Source of the DNA: an uncultured bacterium
GTDB taxonomy: Bacteria > Planctomycetota > UBA1135 > GCA-002686595
NCBI GenBank assembly: GCA_937905825.1
Contig: CALCXM010000187.1
Coordinates: forward strand, 1 to 64,000
Reading direction: 5' to 3'
DNA length: 64,000 bases
Shown here: positions 4,412 to 15,155 of the stretch, piece after piece
Layout: the number at the start of each line of letters is the position of its first letter
Numbering within the stretch: position 1 is the stretch's first letter
Made by a program: the position numbers and the translations under genes
The notes under the pieces: generated by a model
Told to the model about the DNA's origin: nothing
The model's input: the letters and a program-made list of their open reading frames with translations, nothing else
The model's database searches: none

Positions 4412-7400
4412 ATGGTGAATGAGTCTTCGCGCCCGAATCCGACAAGGAATCCTGCTACAATTCCCCCCGTGGGTACGAACACTCCTGAAGAGCGCATTTT
4501 CGACGAGTTCTTTGACGCGATGCTCCGGGGCGAGATTCGCTCCCCGGAATATTTCCTAGCCAGCCGCGGTGACGTTCCCGAATCCTTGCGGGAGCACCTG
4601 CACGGTATCCATCGGATGCTCACCGAGGACAAGGCCGAGCCCGCTGTTAGCGCACCCCCCCTTGCGGCCGAGGACGGCATGCCCTGGGAGCAGCTCGGCG
4701 AGTTCCGGCTCGTGCGCAAACTTGGGGAAGGCGGAATGGGCGTCGTGTTCCTTGCCGAACAAGAGTCCCTTGGACGACTCGTGGCCCTCAAGATCTTGCG
4801 CCCCGACCTCTCCGCCTCGAGCAACGCGGCCATCAGGTTTGAGCGCGAGGCCCATGCCATCGCGCGCATGAACCACCCGCACATCGTGAAGGTCATCGCC
4901 TTCGGAGAGGACCAGGGCGTGAACTTCCTGGCCATGGAGTTGGCGCCCGGAAAAGACCTGGATGAGTTGCTGCAGGAATTGGCCGACCGCGGGGAGACCA
5001 TCGACATCCCCCGTGTTCTGCGATGGTGCGCGGACCTGGCGGACGCCCTACATTCCGCCCACGAACAGGGAGTGATCCATCGGGACGTCAAACCTTCCAA
5101 CGTGCGCATCACGCCGGATGATCGAGCCATGTTGCTCGACTTCGGAGTCGCCCGCGAACTGGAGTCCAATCAAGCGACATTGACTCGCTCCTTCCTCGGG
5201 TCCCCGGCCTATATGGCTCCCGAACAGATTGCGGCGAAGGGCGGCAAGGTCGACGCCCGAACCGATGTCTACGCCCTCGGCATCACCATGTATCAGTGCT
5301 TGACGGGCGCGCTGCCCTTTCGCCGGGAAACCCTCGAGGAAGTCTTCCACGACGTGCTTGTGGAGCCACCCGCTGCGCCGCGCAAGGCGCGACCGGAACT
5401 CTCGAATGACGTGGAAACGGTCATCCTGAAGGCCATCGACAAGGAGCCCGAGCAACGCTTCGTCGATGCAGCAGCCTTTGCCCGTGACCTGCGTGCGCTG
5501 CTCATGTTCCTGCCCATCGAAGCCCGACCGCCGGGCCCCCTCAAGCGCCTGGCCCGGGCGGCAAGACGGCATTCCGCGATAACGACTCTGTTGCTGGCCA
5601 CGCCGCTCGCACTGATCGCGTTCTTCGCAGTGCAGCAGATCGAGCGCAAGGTGGAACGCACCACCACCATCGAAGAAGCCCACGCGAAGATCGTGCAGTA
5701 CCGCAACGGCATCGAGGAGGCCCGCGAGCTGGGTGCTCGCGTTACGGAACTTCAGATGCGTGCGATGTCCGAATACCTGGCCCCCGAACGGGACCTGGAA
5801 CTCGACGCCTTCGAGGACCAAGTGCTCGCTGAACGTCGATCGCGGGAGGAGTCCTTCTACGCCATCCTCGACCTGATTCGGCGGGCGGCGGATCTCGATG
5901 CAGCCCCCGAGGCGATCACGGAATTGCGCGGACGGCTCTACATGGCGAAGTACATGGAGGTCATCGCCGCGGGAGATCCCCTGTTGCGCACGGTGTACCA
6001 CAACCTCGTGCAACGCAATGATCCCAAGGGCACGATCATGGGCGAGGAGGTCAACCCGGTCATGATCGAGATCGAGTGCAACGTGGAGGGAGCCAAGCTC
6101 TATCGCTTTCGCAGTGCACACGCCCGCGAAGAGCTAGGACAAACAGAGCGCCGGTGGGTTCCTGCTCCCCACGGAACCTCCCCGACGCCCGTCAAGCCCG
6201 GGACGTTTTGCTTGGTGTTGCTGGAAGACGCTCAAGGCTTGTACGCTGGCGACCTCGTGGTGAAAGTCGCGGGCCATGCGATTCGCGAGGCCATGTTGGT
6301 TTCCCAGGGTTCGGGGCAAGTGCAGCTCCACGACCGCTTGATCTCGATCGGCGGGCACCCGGTGCTTGGCCACTATGAAGTGGACATGTATGGCCGTCGG
6401 GACTCATACCTGCCGCGCCTCGGGTCGCCGACCGCTCAGGATTTCGTCTTTGAGAGGAACGGGCAACAGTTCACCGAGCGCGCAGCCGACTTGACCGAGC
6501 TTGGCATCGAAGTCGCAACGCCACGGGAAGTTGTGCAGGCAGGCGCCGTCGTGACGACGCTCTTCAGCCAGGGCGAACTGCACTCCAAGTTCCTCGAATC
6601 CGGATTGCGGGTCGACGAGACCGCGACTCCACTGATCTACTCAAAGGCTTCCTTGGTAGGGATCACCCCCTTGGGACCCTTCGACGTGGGCAACGAGAGC
6701 AGGCAGGTCCTCGTCCTGCGCGCACCGGGATACGAACCCCAATTGGTCCCGATAGATCAAAGGGGGCGGCGGATCGATCTATTGCCCCAGGGAACGTCCC
6801 CGGCGAAGTTTGTTCGCATAGTGGACCGCACCATGTCCACTCCGCTGGAGTCGGCCTACTTTTGGATGCGACGTCACGAGGTCACTTTTGGGGAGTACCT
6901 CGAGTTCCTCAATGATCCGGAAACCCAGCGCGAGGTTGGCGAATCGGAGACTCCCATTCGGCGGCCCCGGGGTGGACCTGGGCAGTCAAAGGACTTGTGC
7001 CGCAGAAATCCCGATGGGTCCTTTCAGTTGCGACCCAACTGGCCCGCAGAAGTCCCCGTCTTTGGCGTTTCCTGGTACGACGCGCAAGCTTACGCGAAGT
7101 GGAAAACCGCCAAGGCCAAGGCCGCCGGACTTCCCCACGTCTACTCCCTACCGAAAGAGCACGAATGGATGAGTTCCGCGGGCCCCCATCAGAAGTTTCT
7201 GTACGGGGACCGCTTCCATCCAAAGTGGACAAGCTCCTGTTTCTCCAAGCCCCTTCCCTATCCGCAGCGTGTGATGAGCTATCCGATCGATCGTTCCCTT
7301 TCGGGTGTGTTCGACGTTTGCGGAAACGTGTCGGAGTGGCTCGACGCCTGGTGGGTCGAAGAGCAGGACCGCCGCTGGCACGTCGGGGGCGCCTGGTCGG

Positions 7401-7507
7401 ATGGGGGGCCCGCCAGCATGTTCCAAGTCTCAGGTGGCAATGGATCGCGCCCGGAAGAAGTCTTCGACCAGATCGGCTTTCGCCTCGTCATGCACATGGA
7501 CTCTTGA
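4412..7507 (+). CDS. Ser/Thr protein kinase with C-terminal FGE/sulfatase-modifying-factor domain
   Basis: This 1031-aa transmembrane kinase has all catalytic motifs: glycine loop GEGGMG at about 105-110, ATP Lys at 127 (VALK), HRDVKPSN with Asp225, DFG at 243-245, and an APE at about 269-271. One hydrophobic helix follows at about 389-408, then a charged coiled-coil-like stretch (about 410-500). An uncharacterised region has a PDZ-like flavour around residues 600-700 (GDLVVKVAG, LISIGGHPV). The C-terminal about 220 residues carry FGE/SUMF1-type motifs (VSWYDAQAYAKW, LPKEHEWMSS, GVFDVCGNVSEWLD, HVGGAWSDGG, IGFRLV). In kinases this domain is usually a non-catalytic ligand module; whether it oxidises cysteine is unknown. 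Start ATG 4412 is used; GTG at 4469 is an alternative. It is divergent from the beta-helix protein. Confidence 0.9.
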   Translation: MVNESSRPNPTRNPATIPPVGTNTPEERIFDEFFDAMLRGEIRSPEYFLASRGDVPESLREHLHGIHRMLTEDKAEPAVSAPPLAAEDGMPWEQLGEFRLVRKLGEGGMGVVFLAEQESLGRLVALKILRPDLSASSNAAIRFEREAHAIARMNHPHIVKVIAFGEDQGVNFLAMELAPGKDLDELLQELADRGETIDIPRVLRWCADLADALHSAHEQGVIHRDVKPSNVRITPDDRAMLLDFGVARELESNQATLTRSFLGSPAYMAPEQIAAKGGKVDARTDVYALGITMYQCLTGALPFRRETLEEVFHDVLVEPPAAPRKARPELSNDVETVILKAIDKEPEQRFVDAAAFARDLRALLMFLPIEARPPGPLKRLARAARRHSAITTLLLATPLALIAFFAVQQIERKVERTTTIEEAHAKIVQYRNGIEEARELGARVTELQMRAMSEYLAPERDLELDAFEDQVLAERRSREESFYAILDLIRRAADLDAAPEAITELRGRLYMAKYMEVIAAGDPLLRTVYHNLVQRNDPKGTIMGEEVNPVMIEIECNVEGAKLYRFRSAHAREELGQTERRWVPAPHGTSPTPVKPGTFCLVLLEDAQGLYAGDLVVKVAGHAIREAMLVSQGSGQVQLHDRLISIGGHPVLGHYEVDMYGRRDSYLPRLGSPTAQDFVFERNGQQFTERAADLTELGIEVATPREVVQAGAVVTTLFSQGELHSKFLESGLRVDETATPLIYSKASLVGITPLGPFDVGNESRQVLVLRAPGYEPQLVPIDQRGRRIDLLPQGTSPAKFVRIVDRTMSTPLESAYFWMRRHEVTFGEYLEFLNDPETQREVGESETPIRRPRGGPGQSKDLCRRNPDGSFQLRPNWPAEVPVFGVSWYDAQAYAKWKTAKAKAAGLPHVYSLPKEHEWMSSAGPHQKFLYGDRFHPKWTSSCFSKPLPYPQRVMSYPIDRSLSGVFDVCGNVSEWLDAWWVEEQDRRWHVGGAWSDGGPASMFQVSGGNGSRPEEVFDQIGFRLVMHMDS

Positions 7508-7547: not shown

Positions 7548-8564
7548 CTAACCCCCCAACAAGCTCGCGCGTTCCAGCTCCAAGAGATTTGCAACGGCTA
7601 GGGCATCTTCCATGTTGACGCGCAGCTCCCCATGGCCCCGGTGGATGCGCTCCACCAGATGCTCAATCTCCCCCTGGTAGCCGTCGGCCGGGTCTAAGCC
7701 GATCGACTCGGTGGTCCCATCCACCTCAAGCTGGAGAGGGTTCTGCGCTCCCACGTCAAAGCGTGCGCGGGCGTTTTCGAACTGGACCTCGTAAGTCATC
7801 TTGAACTCGCAGTCTGGACTCGGGTCCCAGGCAGCTTCCGCCGTCACCTTGGCAGCGTTCGTAGCAAAGCTGTACTCGGTTTTGAAGTGATCGGCAGTCC
7901 CGCGACACGCTAGTTCCAACGGCGGACCAAAGGCCCACAGAATGAAATCTGCATCGTGAATGTGCAGGTCAACAAGCGCACCTCCGCTGCGCAGCGGATC
8001 GCCGTAAAACTCAGGGGACCAACCGGGAGTCGGAGAGATACGCCGGAAGTTCGCCTCGAGGACGCCCCCGTATTCGCCGGAGTGGATCACATCGCGCAGC
8101 CAATCCCAACCGGGCCAGAACCGCATGCAGTGGGCTGGCATGCACAGGCGGTTGGAACCGCTCGAAGCGCGCAGCAAGCGAGCCACATCCTTCGATTCAA
8201 GCGCGACCGGCTTCTCGAGCAGGACATGCTTGCCCATGGCGAGGGCCTCGATCGCGAGGTCCACGTGGGTGTCCGTCGGTGTGCAGATCGAGACCAAATC
8301 CACCGCCGGGTCAGCGAGCAGGGGCGCTGCGAATTCATAGGCTGTCAGGGACTCTGGATCGAACATGCGCTCGGGAGCCCTGCCGTCTTCCATGTTCCCC
8401 GCTTCTCCCGTGCGGCCCGCGCGCCGTTCTGGATTGGAATCGCAAACCGCGACCAAGCGATTGGAAAAGCCCCGTTCATTGGCTTGCGCGTAAGCGCGAA
8501 CGTGGGTGCGGCCCATGAAGCCCAAGCCGAGAACTCCGATGCCGATTTCTTTCCTATTGCTCAT
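7548..8564 (-). CDS. Gfo/Idh/MocA-family oxidoreductase
   Basis: This 338-aa NAD(P)-dependent sugar or cyclitol dehydrogenase has an N-terminal Rossmann fold with GVLGLGFMGRTH near residue 10 and LVAVCDSNPE. The family EKPVAL motif is present, containing the conserved Lys that contacts cofactor and substrate. In the second domain GGALVDLHIHDADFILWAFG supplies the catalytic-region D-x-x-x-H. There is no signal peptide, so it acts in the cytoplasm. The ATG at 8564 has AGGAG upstream and overlaps the end of the preceding isomerase gene by 11 bases, which indicates translational coupling. The substrate is not readable from sequence; the neighbours point to a keto-sugar or inositol-like compound. 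Confidence 0.9.
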   Translation of the reverse strand: MSNRKEIGIGVLGLGFMGRTHVRAYAQANERGFSNRLVAVCDSNPERRAGRTGEAGNMEDGRAPERMFDPESLTAYEFAAPLLADPAVDLVSICTPTDTHVDLAIEALAMGKHVLLEKPVALESKDVARLLRASSGSNRLCMPAHCMRFWPGWDWLRDVIHSGEYGGVLEANFRRISPTPGWSPEFYGDPLRSGGALVDLHIHDADFILWAFGPPLELACRGTADHFKTEYSFATNAAKVTAEAAWDPSPDCEFKMTYEVQFENARARFDVGAQNPLQLEVDGTTESIGLDPADGYQGEIEHLVERIHRGHGELRVNMEDALAVANLLELERASLLGG

Positions 8565-9411
8565 GACTGGTCTCCTGCTTTCCAACGTCGACCACCCCGA
8601 GGGAGGTCAGCAACTTCACAGCGGCCCGCATGTCTCCCACGCGATCCTTGCCAGCTTCACGTTCAATCATCAAGTCCACCTTCCGCTCGCTGCCTTGCAG
8701 CACCTTGAAGAACCGCTTCCAATCCACTTGGCCCATACCAGCGGTCACCTCTTCCCCCCACACACCGGACTGTCCGGATGCGTTCGCGTCCTTGATGTGA
8801 ATCTGGAAAACGCTGGGCAGCAAGGCCTCGAGCGCTTCGATCGGATCGCCCATGCCGTACAGCAACATGTTCGCAGGATCGAAGTTCACGCCGACGTTCT
8901 CGCGACCGAGTTCGGCCAAGACTTCGAGCAGGGTCTCGGCGGTCTCTTGCCCTGTCTCCAAGGCCATTCGAATCCCGCGCTCCGCAAAGATGTCAGCCAT
9001 CTGCGCCAAGCGCCCCAGCAGCACGCCTCGCTCGGGATCGCTTGCTTCGTGGGGCAGGAATCCCGCGTGAAAACTGATCAAGGAGATCCCAAGCTGTTCG
9101 GCGACGGCTGCGCTGTTGCGGGTTGCCCTCAAGTTGTCCTTCCAGTGCTTGGTCAGACGCACACCACCGGTCTCGCGAATCGTCTGGGGGCTGGAGTAGT
9201 CTTCCCCTTGCATGCCGATCATGCCGGAGGCGATTCCGATACGCTGCGCCTCAAACACGCGCTGGACATCGTGAACGGGCCAGTCGCCACTGACCACAGG
9301 ATCGAGACCGAGCTGGACGCTCATCACGCCGACCTCCGTGACGAGCCGAACAAGCTCAGTAAGAGACTCGGTCTTCAAGGACCAACTGCATGCGCCAAGG
9401 GTGTAATTCAT
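8554..9411 (-). CDS. Sugar phosphate isomerase/epimerase-like TIM barrel
   Basis: This 285-aa cytoplasmic AP-endonuclease-2-type TIM barrel has the usual strand-end residues: YTLGACSWSL at the N-terminus, ISLISFHAGF, RMALETGQE, NVGVNFDPANMLLYG with a metal-ligand Asp, and VFQIHIKDA with His/Asp. The metal-binding Glu/Asp/His set typical of xylose-isomerase-like enzymes is therefore largely intact. The ATG at 9411 was chosen over an upstream frame extension because the protein core begins there. It overlaps the downstream oxidoreductase gene by 11 bases, forming a two-gene operon. Family members isomerise or epimerise keto-sugars; the precise substrate is unknown. Confidence 0.88.
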   Translation of the reverse strand: MNYTLGACSWSLKTESLTELVRLVTEVGVMSVQLGLDPVVSGDWPVHDVQRVFEAQRIGIASGMIGMQGEDYSSPQTIRETGGVRLTKHWKDNLRATRNSAAVAEQLGISLISFHAGFLPHEASDPERGVLLGRLAQMADIFAERGIRMALETGQETAETLLEVLAELGRENVGVNFDPANMLLYGMGDPIEALEALLPSVFQIHIKDANASGQSGVWGEEVTAGMGQVDWKRFFKVLQGSERKVDLMIEREAGKDRVGDMRAAVKLLTSLGVVDVGKQETSHEQ

Positions 9412-9488
9412 CGCCGTCTTCTCTCGCTCGCAGACACGCCGCAGCACGGAGAGCGGCTACATTACGGCAGTCCGCTCGGAAACCCTAG

Positions 9489-9649
9489 GAGCCTGTGCCA
9501 CAGATAGCGGTTTGCGAGATACCGAGCATCTGGCCCAGGTCAAGGAGTGACAAGTTCCCAATGGCTGGATGCCATCGGGGACCTTGGCAGGACGCAGAGA
9601 TGGGTTCGAGGATCGGTGTCTCGCAAACCGCTATCTGTGGCGCAGACTC
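9489..9649. repeat. 161-bp imperfect palindromic intergenic element
   Basis: Arms 9489-9525 and 9613-9649 are 37 nt long and complementary at 34 positions. Shorter internal complementary segments continue inward (for example GCCCAGGTC against GACCTTGGC, and CCCAATGGC against GCCATCGGG). The whole unit could fold as one long cruciform or RNA hairpin, and its two strands give near-identical translations. Its outer ends share AGGAGCCT and CAGACTCCT with a second hairpin at 34028-34078. No transposase or target-site duplication is seen. It may be a non-autonomous palindromic repeat or a bidirectional terminator. Confidence 0.75.
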
Positions 9650-9665
9650 CTGGCTCGCTCTATTC

Positions 9666-9902
9666 ATGAGATTTTCCACTCGCCTCAACAACAGCCGAGA
9701 GTTTCGCATGGCTGGTGGCAACCGACTTTTGCAGCAGGTGGGTGAGATTCAATCCATCGACGCGCTCATTCCACACAACGCCCTGCGTGGAACGTTCTTT
9801 GTGCGTGGAACCACGGGCGATCTACGGGTGTTCTTCTCACTCTCGCCCGAACGGGACGCGCGGGTCCAAGCTCTCGGTCTGTGGGTCCTCGATAAGCCGT
9901 AG
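9666..9902 (+). CDS. Short ORF, possible remnant of a larger gene
   Basis: The 78-codon frame beginning MRFSTRLNN lies directly downstream of the palindromic element. It contains a pattern (GTFFVRGTTGDLRVFFSLSPE, then RVQALGLWVL) that looks like a beta-sheet domain of about 60 residues. This could be the rest of a domain found beside serine hydrolases, or a real small protein. The frame stays open upstream through the palindromic element to 9495, but that part is only palindrome translation. There is no clear Shine-Dalgarno sequence. Low confidence; function unknown. Confidence 0.3.
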   Translation: MRFSTRLNNSREFRMAGGNRLLQQVGEIQSIDALIPHNALRGTFFVRGTTGDLRVFFSLSPERDARVQALGLWVLDKP

Positions 9903-9997
9903 CGGGGCGGGGGTGAAATCCGACTTGCTCCGAAGGCGCGCGGGTCGAATCAGGGTGTACGATACGTGCCCACCACCCACGCATCCGAGGACACCCC

Positions 9998-10918
9998 ATG
10001 CATCTCAATCGCCGTCAACTCATTCAAGCCAGCGCCAGCGCGAGTGCCCTGGGACTCATCGGGACCCAGCAGGCCGCCATGGCCCAAGGGACCGACAAAG
10101 CCGGCGCCTGGTTCGACATCTCCCTGGCCCAGTGGTCAAGCAATCGAGAGCTCTTCTCCGGTGCCATCGACAACCTGGGTTGGATTTCCAGCGTGCCCAA
10201 GCGCTACGGGATCTCCGCAGTGGAGTTCGTCAATGCCTTCTTCAAGGACAAGGCCTGCGACTGGAACTACCTGAGCCAGATGCAGCTGCGAGCGGACGAC
10301 GCTGGCGTGAAGATGCTGCTGATCATGATCGACGGCGAGGGCCTGCTCGCTGCGGAGGACGAAGCAGAGCGCAAACGCGCCATCGACAACCACCGCAAAT
10401 GGATTGTGGCGGCAAGCTTCCTCGGCTGTCACTCGATTCGCGTCAACGCGGGAGGCACCGGGGACCGCGAATCCATGCAAAAACGCGCGGCCGACTCCCT
10501 CGTTCAGCTGGCTGAGTACGGCGCTCCCTACAAAGTCAACGTGATCGTCGAGAACCACGGCGGCCCGTCCTCCGATGGAGCTTGGTTGGCCGGCGTGATG
10601 AAGCAAGCCAATCACAAGGCTGTCGGCACACTACCCGACTTTGGAAACTTCCAAACCTCCGCCGGTGTTTGGTACGACCGTTACCAAGGCGTCGAGGAAC
10701 TCATGCCCTACGCCAAAGCGGTCAGTGCCAAGAGCCACGCCTTCGATGCAGAGGGCAACGAGACCCGCACAGACTACAAACGAATGATGGGCATCGTCCA
10801 TGCTGCCGGGTACCGAGGCCACGTGGGCATCGAGTACGAAGGCAGCGACCACAGCGAAGAGGAAGGCATCCTCCTCACAAAACAACTGCTCCTCCGCGTC
10901 CGTCAGGAAATCCGCTAG
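9998..10918 (+). CDS. Tat-exported sugar isomerase/epimerase-like TIM barrel
   Basis: This 306-aa protein starts with a twin-arginine signal (NRRQLIQASASASALGLIG, then AMAQG), so it is predicted to be exported folded to the periplasm. The mature part is a xylose-isomerase-like TIM barrel with SAVEFVNAFF, CHSIRVNAGG, VNVIVENHGG, VGTLPDFGNF, AKSHAFD and HVGIEYEGSD at the ends of successive strands. These supply the Glu/Asp/His ligands common in this superfamily. It is the first gene of a plus-strand set; the next gene begins 9 bases after its stop. An exported isomerase beside an exported dehydrogenase suggests periplasmic processing of a sugar or cyclitol (inferred). Confidence 0.88.
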   Translation: MHLNRRQLIQASASASALGLIGTQQAAMAQGTDKAGAWFDISLAQWSSNRELFSGAIDNLGWISSVPKRYGISAVEFVNAFFKDKACDWNYLSQMQLRADDAGVKMLLIMIDGEGLLAAEDEAERKRAIDNHRKWIVAASFLGCHSIRVNAGGTGDRESMQKRAADSLVQLAEYGAPYKVNVIVENHGGPSSDGAWLAGVMKQANHKAVGTLPDFGNFQTSAGVWYDRYQGVEELMPYAKAVSAKSHAFDAEGNETRTDYKRMMGIVHAAGYRGHVGIEYEGSDHSEEEGILLTKQLLLRVRQEIR

Positions 10919-10927
10919 AAAGCCCCG

Positions 10928-13900
10928 ATGATTCGTCTTCTTGCCACCGCTCTGCTCCTTTCCAGTTCCGCCAACCCCCAGCATCCCAGCAAGACGGACG
11001 AGGTCTACACGCCGGAGATCGCCGGATCCTCCGACGAAGGTTCGACGGACATGGCTAGCATCAAACTGCCGGAGGGCTTCGTCTGCGAGCTCGTGGCAGC
11101 AGAACCGCACCTGGCGAACCCCGTCAGTTTCTGGCCCGCGGTGGATGGCTCGCTGTACGTGACAGAAACCTTTCGCCTGCACGCCGGAGTGACCGACATG
11201 CGCGAACACGTCGCGCGACTCGAAGAGGACATGGCCTGTCAAACGGTCGAAGACCGCGTGGCCATGTTCAAGCGTTGGTCGGGGGACAACTTCAAAAAAG
11301 ACTACGGCACAGAACACGAACGGGTGCGCCTCTTGCGGGACACGGACGGAGACGGCGTCGTCGATCAATCCGTGACCTATGCGGACGGCTTCAAGGACCC
11401 TTCCGTAGGAATCGCTGCGGGCGTGTTGGAGCACAACGGTGCGGTGTACTACACCTGCATCCCCGACCTCTGGAAATTGGAAGACACCGACGGCGACGAC
11501 ATCGCGGACAAGCGCGAGAGCCTCTCAACCGGTTACGGCGTGCGAGTGACGCTGCTCGGCCATGACCTGCACGGGCTGCAAATTGGCCCCGATGGCTGGC
11601 TCTACTTTTCCTGCGGCGATCGTGGGTTCAACGTCCAGACTCCCAAAGGCCCCATCGTCCACCCGGACACGGGAGCTGTCCTGCGCTGCCGTTTGGATGG
11701 TTCTGACCTAGAGGTTGTGCACACCGGGCTGCGCAATCCCCAAGAGCTGGCCTTTGATGCACAGGGCAACCTGTTCACCGGCGACAACAATTCGGACGGC
11801 GGAGACAAGGCCCGCTGGGTGATGATCCTCGAAGGAGCGGACACCGGTTGGCGTTCCTCCTACCAATGGATCTTCGAGCCCGAGGCCCGTGGACCTTGGC
11901 GCGAAGAGGGCCTTTGGAAGCCGCACTTTGAAGGGCAAGCCGCCTACATCTCCCCAGCGATCGACAACATCGCCGCGGGACCTTCGGGGCTGGCTTACTA
12001 CCCGGGAACTGGATCCGGCAACGGTTTGGACGGCACCTTCCTGCTCTGTGATTTCCGCGGCTATCGCGGCGGTAGCGGCGTGCTCTCCTTCTCCTTGGAG
12101 CCCGACGGCGCGAACTTCAAACTCGTCAATCGCCAAGAGTACATCTGGAAGACGTTGGTCACCGATGTGGACTTCGGACCGGACGGGTCCATCTACTTCT
12201 CCGACTGGGTCTCCGGTTGGGGCATGACGGGCAAGGGACGCATCTACCGCGCCTACGATCCGAAGGTGCGCGATACGGACGAAGTGCGCGCCCTCGCCGC
12301 CCTGCTCGCCGGTGGAGCGAAGGATTTGGATCTCGACCGCTTGCAGGTCTTGCTCAAACACACAGACATGCGCGCCCGGCGCCTCGCCCAATTCGAACTG
12401 GTGGCGCGCGGCAAGAGCGGTTGGGAGCGCTTCCAGCAGGTGCTCAAGAACGCATCCGACCCGATGGCGAGCATCCACAGCGTGTGGGGACTTGGCATGG
12501 CCGCGGAGGTGGAACCGAGCCTCTTGGAGTACCTCAACCCCTTCCTGCGCGATCCGAGCCCGGCGGTCCGCGCCCAAACCGCGCGGGTTCTTGGAGACCA
12601 CCGGTATGCGCCGGCCACTTCCCAACTGATCGCCACCGTAGCGGACGCCGACCCGACGGTGCGGCGCCACGCAGCGATCGCATGCGGGCGCTTGGCAGAT
12701 GAACGGGCCGTGGACGCCTTGATTCAACTCGCCGTGCAAGACGCCGCGACCGACACGGTTCTGCGCCATGGCGCGAGTTGGGGTCTCTCCCAATGCGCTA
12801 GTGCGGAGCGGCTTGCTCTACTCAGCGAACACGATTCCGTGCAAGCGCGGCTCGCTGCGGTCGTGGCCCTGCGCCTGCAGGCCAGCCCGCTGGTGGCCAC
12901 GTTTCTTGCGGACAGCGATGCGCTGGTCGCCGTCGAAGCGGCTCGCGCCATTTCGGACGTCCCGATTGTCGATGCCTACCCGCAGCTTGCCGCCCTAGCA
13001 GCGGACGAGTCGATTCAAGACGAGCACCTGCTGCGTCGAGTCTTGAACGCCAACCTGCGCCTGGGTGAGGAGGCCAACGCAACCACCCTGGCCAACTTGG
13101 CCACCAGCGACAAGCGCAGTGAGCGAATACGATCCGACGCCATCGGGATGCTCGCAAGCTGGAAAACCCCTTCCCCGCGCCACTACATCTTGAGCAATTG
13201 GGCTCCCATGGAAGAGCGCGACGCAGCTCACGCGAACCAACTGCTGGCGGACTTCACCGGCCGTGGGATCCTCGAGGCGCCCGACTCCGTCTTGCAAGCT
13301 TGGATCGATGCGATCGAGCCCCTCGAGTTTGAGGCGAAACGCCCCACCTTAGAAGCGGTCCTCGCCAACACTGCTTTGGCCAGTGCCACGCGCGTCGCCT
13401 CTTTTCAACGGCTACGGGAAGACGGCGCTTCGGACCTTGGACAATTGGTAGCGACGGCCCTCAAGGATAGCGACACCAGCCTGCGCGCCGCCGCTCTGGA
13501 GCAGCTTCCCGGCCTGGCCCCCGAGCAGGCGCTTCCGCTGTTTGGGGACGTTCTAGAAAACGGCGACATCATCGAATGCCGCGCGGTCTACAAGGCTTTG
13601 AGCTCCATGACGACCTTCGAGGCTCAAACGCTCCTCACCGATGAGTTCACGAAGCTGCGCAACTCTTCCCTGCGCCGCGAACTGCAACTCGACCTGATCG
13701 AAGCGCTGTATCAGATGGAGTCCAACGCAACTCGACAGCAAGTAGACCGCTTGCGCAGCAACCGCCGCGAGCGGGAACCCGTAGCCGCCAAGTGGTTGGA
13801 CAGCATGTGGGGCGGCGACAAAGTGGAGGGCAAGAAGATCTTTGAACAGGACGTGGCCCTCTCTTGCATGCGCTGCCATCTCTCCGGTGACGGCGCCGCC

Positions 13901-14230
13901 CAAGGAGTCGGTCCGGATCTCGCGGGTGTCGGGGAAAGGCTCTCCAGGCGTCAGATTCTGGATTCCATCATCACGCCCAACTCGGAAACCGCAGAGGGCT
14001 TCGAGTCTGTGCTCTTCGTGCTCGAAGACGACGAACTCGTGGCTGGCCGCGTCCTCGAGCAGACCGACAAACTTGTGCGGGTGATCCAGTCCTCCGGTGA
14101 GATTCGAGAGTTCGACCCGGCCAGCATCGTTGAGCGTCGCCAGGATCTCTCCGCGATGCCCTCGGGCATGGACCTGTTGCTCAAGCCACGGACCATGCGG
14201 GACCTGATCGAGTACGTCGCCTCCCTTTGA
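10928..14230 (+). CDS. PVC-type membrane-bound dehydrogenase with HEAT repeats and CxxCH haem domain
   Basis: This 1100-aa protein has a short N-terminal signal segment (MIRLLATALLLSSS). It then has a soluble six-bladed propeller dehydrogenase-like domain (about 35-440), shown by LPEGFVCELVAAEP, DTDGDGVVD, HDLHGLQIGPDGWLYFSCGDRG, GLRNPQELAFDAQGNLFTGD, GGSGVLSF and YFSDWVSGW. About 500 residues of HEAT-like helical repeats follow, and a C-terminal cytochrome c-like domain with CMRCH at about residue 981 and GVGPDLAGVGERLSRRQILDSI. This order is the well-known planctomycete pattern. The likely role is periplasmic oxidation of a sugar-like substrate with electrons passed to the haem. It is co-transcribed with the two Tat-signal TIM barrels (gaps of 9 and 22 bases). 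Confidence 0.92.
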   Translation: MIRLLATALLLSSSANPQHPSKTDEVYTPEIAGSSDEGSTDMASIKLPEGFVCELVAAEPHLANPVSFWPAVDGSLYVTETFRLHAGVTDMREHVARLEEDMACQTVEDRVAMFKRWSGDNFKKDYGTEHERVRLLRDTDGDGVVDQSVTYADGFKDPSVGIAAGVLEHNGAVYYTCIPDLWKLEDTDGDDIADKRESLSTGYGVRVTLLGHDLHGLQIGPDGWLYFSCGDRGFNVQTPKGPIVHPDTGAVLRCRLDGSDLEVVHTGLRNPQELAFDAQGNLFTGDNNSDGGDKARWVMILEGADTGWRSSYQWIFEPEARGPWREEGLWKPHFEGQAAYISPAIDNIAAGPSGLAYYPGTGSGNGLDGTFLLCDFRGYRGGSGVLSFSLEPDGANFKLVNRQEYIWKTLVTDVDFGPDGSIYFSDWVSGWGMTGKGRIYRAYDPKVRDTDEVRALAALLAGGAKDLDLDRLQVLLKHTDMRARRLAQFELVARGKSGWERFQQVLKNASDPMASIHSVWGLGMAAEVEPSLLEYLNPFLRDPSPAVRAQTARVLGDHRYAPATSQLIATVADADPTVRRHAAIACGRLADERAVDALIQLAVQDAATDTVLRHGASWGLSQCASAERLALLSEHDSVQARLAAVVALRLQASPLVATFLADSDALVAVEAARAISDVPIVDAYPQLAALAADESIQDEHLLRRVLNANLRLGEEANATTLANLATSDKRSERIRSDAIGMLASWKTPSPRHYILSNWAPMEERDAAHANQLLADFTGRGILEAPDSVLQAWIDAIEPLEFEAKRPTLEAVLANTALASATRVASFQRLREDGASDLGQLVATALKDSDTSLRAAALEQLPGLAPEQALPLFGDVLENGDIIECRAVYKALSSMTTFEAQTLLTDEFTKLRNSSLRRELQLDLIEALYQMESNATRQQVDRLRSNRREREPVAAKWLDSMWGGDKVEGKKIFEQDVALSCMRCHLSGDGAAQGVGPDLAGVGERLSRRQILDSIITPNSETAEGFESVLFVLEDDELVAGRVLEQTDKLVRVIQSSGEIREFDPASIVERRQDLSAMPSGMDLLLKPRTMRDLIEYVASL

Positions 14231-14252
14231 GCCCGGGGCTCAGCGCATCACC

Positions 14253-15155
14253 ATGACCCCCCTCTCACGCCGAACGTTTCTAGCTGCCACCGCTGCCGCG
14301 GGCGCACTCAGCCAAGAGCGGTCCGTCCCGCCGCCGCCCAAGGTGCAGGTCGATCCCACTTGGGTAAAAACTCCGGGCAAAACCGCCAACAGTCGGTTCG
14401 CGGTCAACGTGGAGATGTGGTTCCGCAAACTCCCCTTCCTCGATCGCATTCGTGCCAGCGCGGACTTGGGCTTCGACGCCATTGAGTTCTGGGGACTTGG
14501 CGGCAAGGATCTCGAAGCCATCGCCAAGCTCTGCGAGGAACTCAAAGTCGAGGTGGCGCAGTTCACCGCTTGGGGTTTCGTCCCCGGCCTGAACGACCCG
14601 AAGAACCACGAAGCCTTTCTCGGTGCAGTTCATGCGGCGACGCAAGCGGCGAAGGTTCTGCGCGCACGCAAGGCGACGGTGGTGGGCGGCAACGACCAAC
14701 CAGGCATGAGCCAGGAGCAGATGATCTCCAACATCACGGTCGGGTTGCAGCTCGCGGCTCCCATCGCGGAAGCTGCCAATCTGATGCTAATCCTCGAGCC
14801 CATGAACGTGCGCGTCGACCACTTCGGCCACTGTTTGCATGGCAGTGCGGATGCCCTGAAGATCTGCCGAGCGGTGGATTCGCCGATGGTCAAGATCAAC
14901 TGGGACCTGTATCACATGCAGATCTCCGAGGGCGATCTGTGCGGGCACCTGCGCGATGGAATCGATCAGGTGGGTTACTTGCAGTTGGCCGATCACCCAG
15001 GTCGCAACGAGCCGGGAACCGGTGAAGTGAGCTACGCGCGTGTCCTGCACACGGCGCAAGCGCTCGGCTACAAGGACATCATTGGCCTTGAGTGCTACCC
15101 ACAGAACAGCGAAGCCCAGGCTGCCCAAAGGGTCCATCAAGCGGACCTCTGGTAG
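14253..15155 (+). CDS. Hydroxypyruvate isomerase-like TIM barrel with Tat signal
   Basis: This 300-aa protein begins with a twin-arginine-type leader (SRRTFLAATAAAGALS). The mature protein resembles the hydroxypyruvate isomerase group: FAVNVEMWFRKLPFLDRI, DLGFDAIEFWG, VVGGNDQPGMS, LILEPMN with the conserved Glu, VKINWDLYHMQISEGDL with Asp/His, YLQLADHPGRNEPGTGEVSY and IGLECYP. The usual two catalytic Glu residues therefore appear to be present (EPMN and GLEC). It is the last gene of the plus-strand operon and meets the convergent small gene at 15159 within 4 bases. Substrate unknown; export would make it a periplasmic partner of the haem dehydrogenase. Confidence 0.88.
   Translation: MTPLSRRTFLAATAAAGALSQERSVPPPPKVQVDPTWVKTPGKTANSRFAVNVEMWFRKLPFLDRIRASADLGFDAIEFWGLGGKDLEAIAKLCEELKVEVAQFTAWGFVPGLNDPKNHEAFLGAVHAATQAAKVLRARKATVVGGNDQPGMSQEQMISNITVGLQLAAPIAEAANLMLILEPMNVRVDHFGHCLHGSADALKICRAVDSPMVKINWDLYHMQISEGDLCGHLRDGIDQVGYLQLADHPGRNEPGTGEVSYARVLHTAQALGYKDIIGLECYPQNSEAQAAQRVHQADLW

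Follow-up and report, generated by a model that had tools for sequence, protein, structure and literature searches.

A divergent two-module planctomycete locus as a candidate extracytoplasmic 3-keto-glycoside pathway

Here we compare a five-gene locus (g1 to g5, positions 7548-15155) from an uncultured planctomycete with the closest described systems for 3-keto-sugar breakdown. The locus lies in a 64,000-nucleotide stretch (contig CALCXM010000187.1 of assembly GCA_937905825.1, positions 1 to 64,000), referred to below as the window. The papers on known systems are cited from excerpts. In Bacillus smithii, the levoglucosan pathway LgdA-LgdB1-LgdB2-LgdC proceeds by oxidation, elimination, hydration and reduction, with the TIM-barrel pair LgdB1/LgdB2 performing the elimination and hydration of 3-keto-levoglucosan (PMC7676230); the TIM barrel AtOGE likewise cleaves and hydrates 3-keto-sugars (PMC10628242). 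The LacABC-DUF1080 lactose route of Caulobacter is periplasmic and has a transporter gene, two epimerase genes and a reductase gene in its vicinity (PMC9007349). In the C-glycoside deglycosidases (CGDs), Mn is bound by Glu147, Asp179, His269, Lys271 and Glu305, with His149 put forward as the base (PMC8563793).

Like the locus, the Lgd pathway as excerpted combines a dehydrogenase and a reductase with a pair of TIM barrels that carry sugar phosphate isomerase annotations. Unlike it, Lgd is NAD-dependent and appears without a haem dehydrogenase, whereas two TIM barrels of the locus carry twin-arginine (Tat) signals. The LacABC-DUF1080 route resembles the locus, as read here, in that sugars are oxidised at C3 and cleaved in the periplasm before being taken up. 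It differs in two respects: the proposed dehydrogenase of the locus is of the propeller-HEAT-cytochrome kind, and the cleavage carried out by DUF1080 may fall to g3 instead. Our best reading is that the locus is a variant of this recently described 3-keto sugar-breakdown route, with a different dehydrogenase from that of Caulobacter. On balance, it probably encodes a two-compartment 3-keto-glycoside pathway in which oxidation and cleavage take place outside the cytoplasm. A Bacteroides 3-keto pathway is reportedly the subject of a 2024 Nature paper. An earlier note on this DNA knew of no characterised pathway with this exact combination of genes, which was too strong a statement given the close precedents (PMC7676230, PMC9007349).

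All five open reading frames (ORFs) are present in two divergent units, g1-g2 on the minus strand and g3-g4-g5 on the plus strand. The short gaps between g3 and g4 (9 bp) and between g4 and g5 (22 bp), together with the 8-bp overlap of g1 and g2, suit two operons. This agrees with the earlier note, which described a cytoplasmic pair divergent from an operon with two Tat-exported TIM barrels and a haem protein; Arg-Arg signals on g3 and g5 bear out the export, and the theme of sugar oxidation divided between two compartments is supported. The neighbourhood analysis that it had called for was run on the source genome and 40 relatives (n = 41) by comparing the positions of orthologue-like top matches for each protein; many of these genomes are fragmented drafts, and the unlinked counts include contig breaks. 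Linkage proved to be conserved, and the lack of linkage that the earlier note had named as a refutation did not arise. Genes g1 and g2 lie at most 300 bp apart on the same strand in 17/17 genomes holding both, and g3 and g4 do so in 17 of 28 (on one contig in 18/28). At a distance of up to 10 kb, g4 and g5 share a strand in 14/19 genomes, and g2 is near g3 in 8/16. All five genes fall inside 10 kb in five of the 41 genomes (G000, G001, G006, G008 and G013). As a control, 11 other genes of window positions 1-24000 were called with a rough codon-scored gene caller; only one, a short ORF, recurs in the 40 other loci, compared with 5/5 module genes. Since the module pairs stay together in the relatives and the source genome while the other window genes mostly do not, the linkage is not due to chance. 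The locus is thus made of two conserved modules that often, but not always, travel together.

The g3 product (9998..10918, plus strand, 306 amino acids) is a Tat-exported TIM barrel of the 4ovx family (PF01261, 79.6 bits; signal NRRQLI), for which we propose a 3-keto-glycoside beta-eliminase or hydratase activity. A Tat pattern was found in 60 of 80 g3 calls, with some of the 20 misses being truncated gene calls. The closest solved sequence is 4ovx at 332 bits, listed without a function. When the g3 family profile was compared with the PDB, the next matches were the alpha-type subunits of C-glycoside deglycosidases (7exz/7drd, 7exb/7dre, 7dnm and DgpC1) at no more than 47.8 bits, with their ExH, D, K and ExE columns lining up with those of g3. 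In this profile alignment the counterparts of Glu147, His149, Asp179, His269, Lys271 and Glu305 are Glu185, His187, Asp214, Ser243, Lys245 and Glu279, all of which, along with E281, are invariant in 17/17 sequences. The base and four Mn ligands (the Glu147, Asp179, Lys271 and Glu305 places) are retained. Because of this, and because the nearest characterised relatives are beta-eliminases, the comparison suggests that 'candidate eliminase or hydratase' is a better name for g3 than 'isomerase'. The TIM barrel and the ExH/Asp/Lys/Glu pattern are shared with PuCGD, EuCGD and AgCGD2 (PMC8563793) and with AtOGE (PMC10628242). The g3 product differs from the deglycosidases in the Ser at the His269 place and in the Tat signal, and a CGD beta-subunit was not noticed here. 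Both 4ovx and 3tva, the nearest solved relative of g2, are structural-genomics entries from an organism that we take to be Planctopirus limnophila, and to our knowledge neither has a published function.

A wider profile search of species genomes, from which the best 80 of 583 confirmed g3 matches were kept, placed g3 in records from Planctomycetota, Verrucomicrobia, Bacteroidota, Marinimicrobia, Acidobacteria and others. Among these, g3 accompanies g1-g2 and 3-keto-sugar genes even without g4. For example, two verrucomicrobial loci (L116 and L117) contain a row of g2, g1, an MFS transporter and g3, and a marinimicrobial locus (L105) has the order Tat GFO, MFS, GFO, DUF1080, g3. In three loci from Parapedobacter and Sphingobacterium (L124, L137 and L152), a CCG-domain protein and an MFS-like protein come immediately before the g3 relatives, the CCG domain having been called by hmmscan in L124 and by clustering in L137 and L152; ThuA-like genes are close by in the latter two. 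Three others (L109, L111 and L129) have an S-adenosylhomocysteine hydrolase immediately upstream of g3 (called by hmmscan in L111 and by clustering in L109 and L129), with no apparent link to sugar metabolism.

The g4 family is itself joined to domains of 3-keto-sugar metabolism. In the source genome, five of nine DUF7133 ORFs also bear DUF1080 (contigs C110, C154 and C134) or ThuA (C82 and one of two on C101); four were identified by hmmscan, and the C134 case was assigned from a shared open frame. DUF1080 is also found on g4 paralogues of G004 and G001 (L172 and L173), and a g4 relative in L081 has a C-terminal ThuA domain (145 bits). DUF1080 being a 3-keto-disaccharide hydrolase, these DUF1080 and ThuA fusions favour a part for g4 in 3-keto-sugar metabolism. 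Separate DUF1080 genes occur within 500 bp of a module in at least 4/17 genomes (G004, G007, G013 and G020; about 0.44 expected, P ~8e-4) and within 10 kb in at least 8/17 (1.8 expected, P ~1e-4), by an analytic estimate whose assumption of evenly spread, independently placed genes does not hold for related genomes. Locus L135, from G004, has the order Tat GFO, g3, g4, ApbE, Tat GFO, haem protein, g2, g1, DUF1080; the first Tat GFO is of the glycoside 3-dehydrogenase type, at 122 bits against a cut-off of 750. In G008, the GFO adjoining g5 is levoglucosan-dehydrogenase-like from end to end, at 297 bits against a cut-off of 650. These linked genes and fusions fit a 3-keto pathway of oxidation, elimination, hydration and reduction. 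Giant g4 paralogues of 1725-2029 amino acids are also encoded in the source genome (L169, L170 and L171, on C110, C82 and C101), with DUF7133 joined to FG-GAP, GDSL, PA14, copper-binding, cytochrome c, ThuA or DUF1080 domains.

The g4 product (10928..14230, plus strand, 1100 amino acids, DUF7133/TIGR02604/TIGR02603) is an exported propeller-HEAT-cytochrome c protein and a putative haem-linked sugar oxidoreductase. A signal-like N-terminus is followed by the propeller (DUF7133, with a weak GSDH match), then by HEAT repeats and, at the C-terminus, by the TIGR02603 haem domain, which holds the sole CxxCH motif, CMRCH at residue 980. Both curated PVC-type CxxCH cut-offs are exceeded (TIGR02604, 134.7 vs 122.2 bits; TIGR02603, 76 vs 68.15 bits). 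No transmembrane helix was found in g4, where the sole hydrophobic window above 1.6 is within a HEAT helix; the earlier description of this protein as a membrane dehydrogenase rests on an old family name and should be dropped. An AlphaFold2 model from 20 sequences (pLDDT 86.0, pTM 0.80) contains a six-bladed propeller that, in a residue-level second comparison, matched pyrroloquinoline quinone (PQQ) sugar dehydrogenases (3a9g, Z 31.5, root-mean-square deviation 2.6, 299 residues aligned; 1qbi, Z 26.0); the propeller domain alone gave Z 30.9 against 3a9g. The catalytic His144 of sGDH corresponds to H212 of g4 and the GHRNPQ motif to R269-N270-P271-Q272, invariant in 20/20 sequences. Thus, g4 resembles the PQQ sugar dehydrogenases (sGDH, Asd, 3a9g and AA12 pyranose dehydrogenase) in its propeller fold, catalytic His and Arg-Asn motif, and AA12 also in having the propeller joined to a haem domain. 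It differs from them in its HEAT and TIGR02603 domains and in the cofactor-related features weighed below. Our literature searches turned up no report on this locus or on the function of the TIGR02604 family.

The second Tat-exported TIM barrel, g5 (14253..15155, plus strand, 300 amino acids; PF01261, 112.9 bits; signal SRRTFL), best matches models of hydroxypyruvate and 2-oxo-tetronate isomerases, though it does not reach the cut-off of the hydroxypyruvate isomerase model TIGR03234 (157.2 vs 353.45 bits). The ExH pattern is missing, with Glu182 followed by Pro and then Met or (2/13) Leu, so g5 is a different enzyme from g3, nearest to these isomerases. The earlier note had called both exported barrels isomerases, a name that may suit g5 as a hydroxypyruvate-isomerase-like protein and is doubtful for g3. 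The g4-g5 pairing recurs on contig C57, where a Tat hydroxypyruvate-isomerase-like protein lies 70 bp downstream of another CxxCH protein. In G006, an Nramp-type metal transporter directly follows g5 (L050:14238-15491), which suggests a metal need but was seen once.

The cytoplasmic pair consists of g1 (7548..8561, minus strand, 337 amino acids), a GFO/IDH/MocA oxidoreductase (PF01408, 75.9 bits; GFO_IDH_MocA_C3, 43.3 bits) that reaches none of the curated NCBIfam equivalogs, and g2 (8554..9411, minus strand, 285 amino acids), an AP_endonuc_2 TIM barrel (PF01261, 96.1 bits) whose nearest PDB match is 3tva at 107.7 bits. No signal peptide was seen by eye in either. We propose that g1 may be a 3-keto-sugar reductase and g2 a hydratase or epimerase.

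In the 3-keto-glycoside pathway that we favour, a glycoside would be oxidised at C3 outside the cytoplasm, most likely by g4, whose propeller active site would hand electrons to the c-haem at its C-terminus for entry into the respiratory chain. The g3 enzyme would remove the alpha proton and eliminate the leaving group, or hydrate the product, and g5 would isomerise or epimerise the released keto-sugar. After uptake through a transporter presumably encoded elsewhere, g2 and g1 may hydrate or epimerise the product and then reduce it to an ordinary hexose using NAD(P)H. Gene content, signals, linkage, folds, conserved residues and domain fusions are observed; each reaction, the sequence of steps, the substrate and the path of the electrons are inferred from them. 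A broader proposal, which we put forward tentatively and regard as possible but doubtful, is that DUF7133-CxxCH haem propellers oxidise glycosides at C3 in the periplasm without PQQ, by means of an unrecognised redox cofactor, and feed the respiratory chain directly, each having its own cleaving partner (a g3-like eliminase, DUF1080 or ThuA) either as a separate protein or in the same chain.

Several observations weigh against the favoured pathway. None of the proteins of the locus, or of its linked genes and fusions, reaches the curated equivalog cut-off of any 3-keto-glycoside enzyme. The Mn ligand His269 is replaced by Ser243 in all 17 aligned g3 sequences, and Ser occupies this place in 68/68 readable sequences of the best 80 of 583. 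No transporter gene lies within the locus, and DUF1080, ThuA and MFS genes number zero in the 64-kb window, as judged by home-made profiles of which the MFS profile covers one family only. The relatedness of the genomes also detracts from the DUF1080 enrichment. In the same best 80 of 583 g3 loci, g4 is near g3 at any strength in 9/80 and as a strong match (>1000 bits) in six (L088, L091, L110, L130, L135 and L147, one of them Fodinibius roseus), where L110, L135 and L147 are not independent of G024, G004 and G007; L089 likewise repeats G023. As a general rule, g3 as a dedicated partner of g4 was rejected on this count. For g4 itself, a hand alignment anchored on PDG places Lys377 of sGDH at a variable position, Arg406 at L410 and Arg408 at T412. 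Lys377 and Arg408 bind PQQ in sGDH, and AA12 is also without Lys377 (excerpt of PMC6881789). No pqqC was above cut-off in any of the 41 genomes, nor in a control panel (0/14), so the sensitivity of this search is not shown. With no pqqC above cut-off and the clamp Lys and Arg apparently unconserved, the redox cofactor and dehydrogenase role of g4 are unproved, and oxidation with electrons leaving through CMRCH, as in the earlier note, is something we still infer. The protein may hold PQQ, another cofactor or only haem, and scavenging of PQQ by the host is possible; the apparent lack of PQQ genes and of clamp residues makes the nature of that cofactor a well-defined question.

The same features bear on whether the locus instead oxidises free aldoses or aldonates at C1, with g4 drawing on scavenged PQQ to work as a PQQ-type aldose dehydrogenase, and g5 and g3 isomerising acids or ketoses before uptake. 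Such a route would account for 3a9g, a PQQ aldose dehydrogenase, being the best propeller match, for the invariant His144 and GHRNPQ places, and for the isomerase models that lead the g5 matches. It sits poorly with the apparently unconserved clamp and the pqqC result, and the fusions and neighbours of g4 are DUF1080 and ThuA rather than aldonate genes; we consider it unlikely. Another arrangement would have an exported NAD(P)-carrying GFO or other dehydrogenase make the 3-keto-sugar, leaving g4 as a ligand-binding or electron-shuttling partner. HHIP, which is not known as a sugar dehydrogenase, has the same fold (Z 22-24, below the PQQ sugar dehydrogenases), and some modules have a neighbouring Tat GFO gene of glycoside 3-dehydrogenase type. 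However, the active-site-like His, Arg and Asn of g4 are invariant in 20/20 sequences, and this locus has no exported GFO, since g1 has no signal, leaving this arrangement quite improbable. Inositol or cyclitol catabolism, also raised by the earlier note, is very hard to credit: the likeness of g1 to IolG (87.7 bits; cut-off 355) is at superfamily level and common to the GFO relatives tested, and g2 gives 20.3 bits against the IolE cut-off of 290.

Between the two modules, at 9487..9651 (no strand assigned), is a MITE-like element that is outside the pathway. Its inverted arms of 51 nt are complementary at 84%, and the genome holds eight more copies with at least 91% identity across at least 111 bp. 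Promoter and terminator scans gave results no better than shuffles. Window positions 4412-7504 encode a Ser/Thr kinase fused with an FGE-sulfatase-type domain.

If the 3-keto-glycoside pathway is correct, it would give a testable function to a large family named only 'PVC-type haem-binding' and to the solved but uncharacterised TIM barrel 4ovx. It would also mean that planctomycetes can break glycosidic bonds oxidatively outside the cytoplasm, a capacity that glycoside-hydrolase counts miss. The broader proposal for the haem propellers, if true, would describe a modular extracytoplasmic alternative to glycoside hydrolases, in a family that is multi-copy in these genomes.

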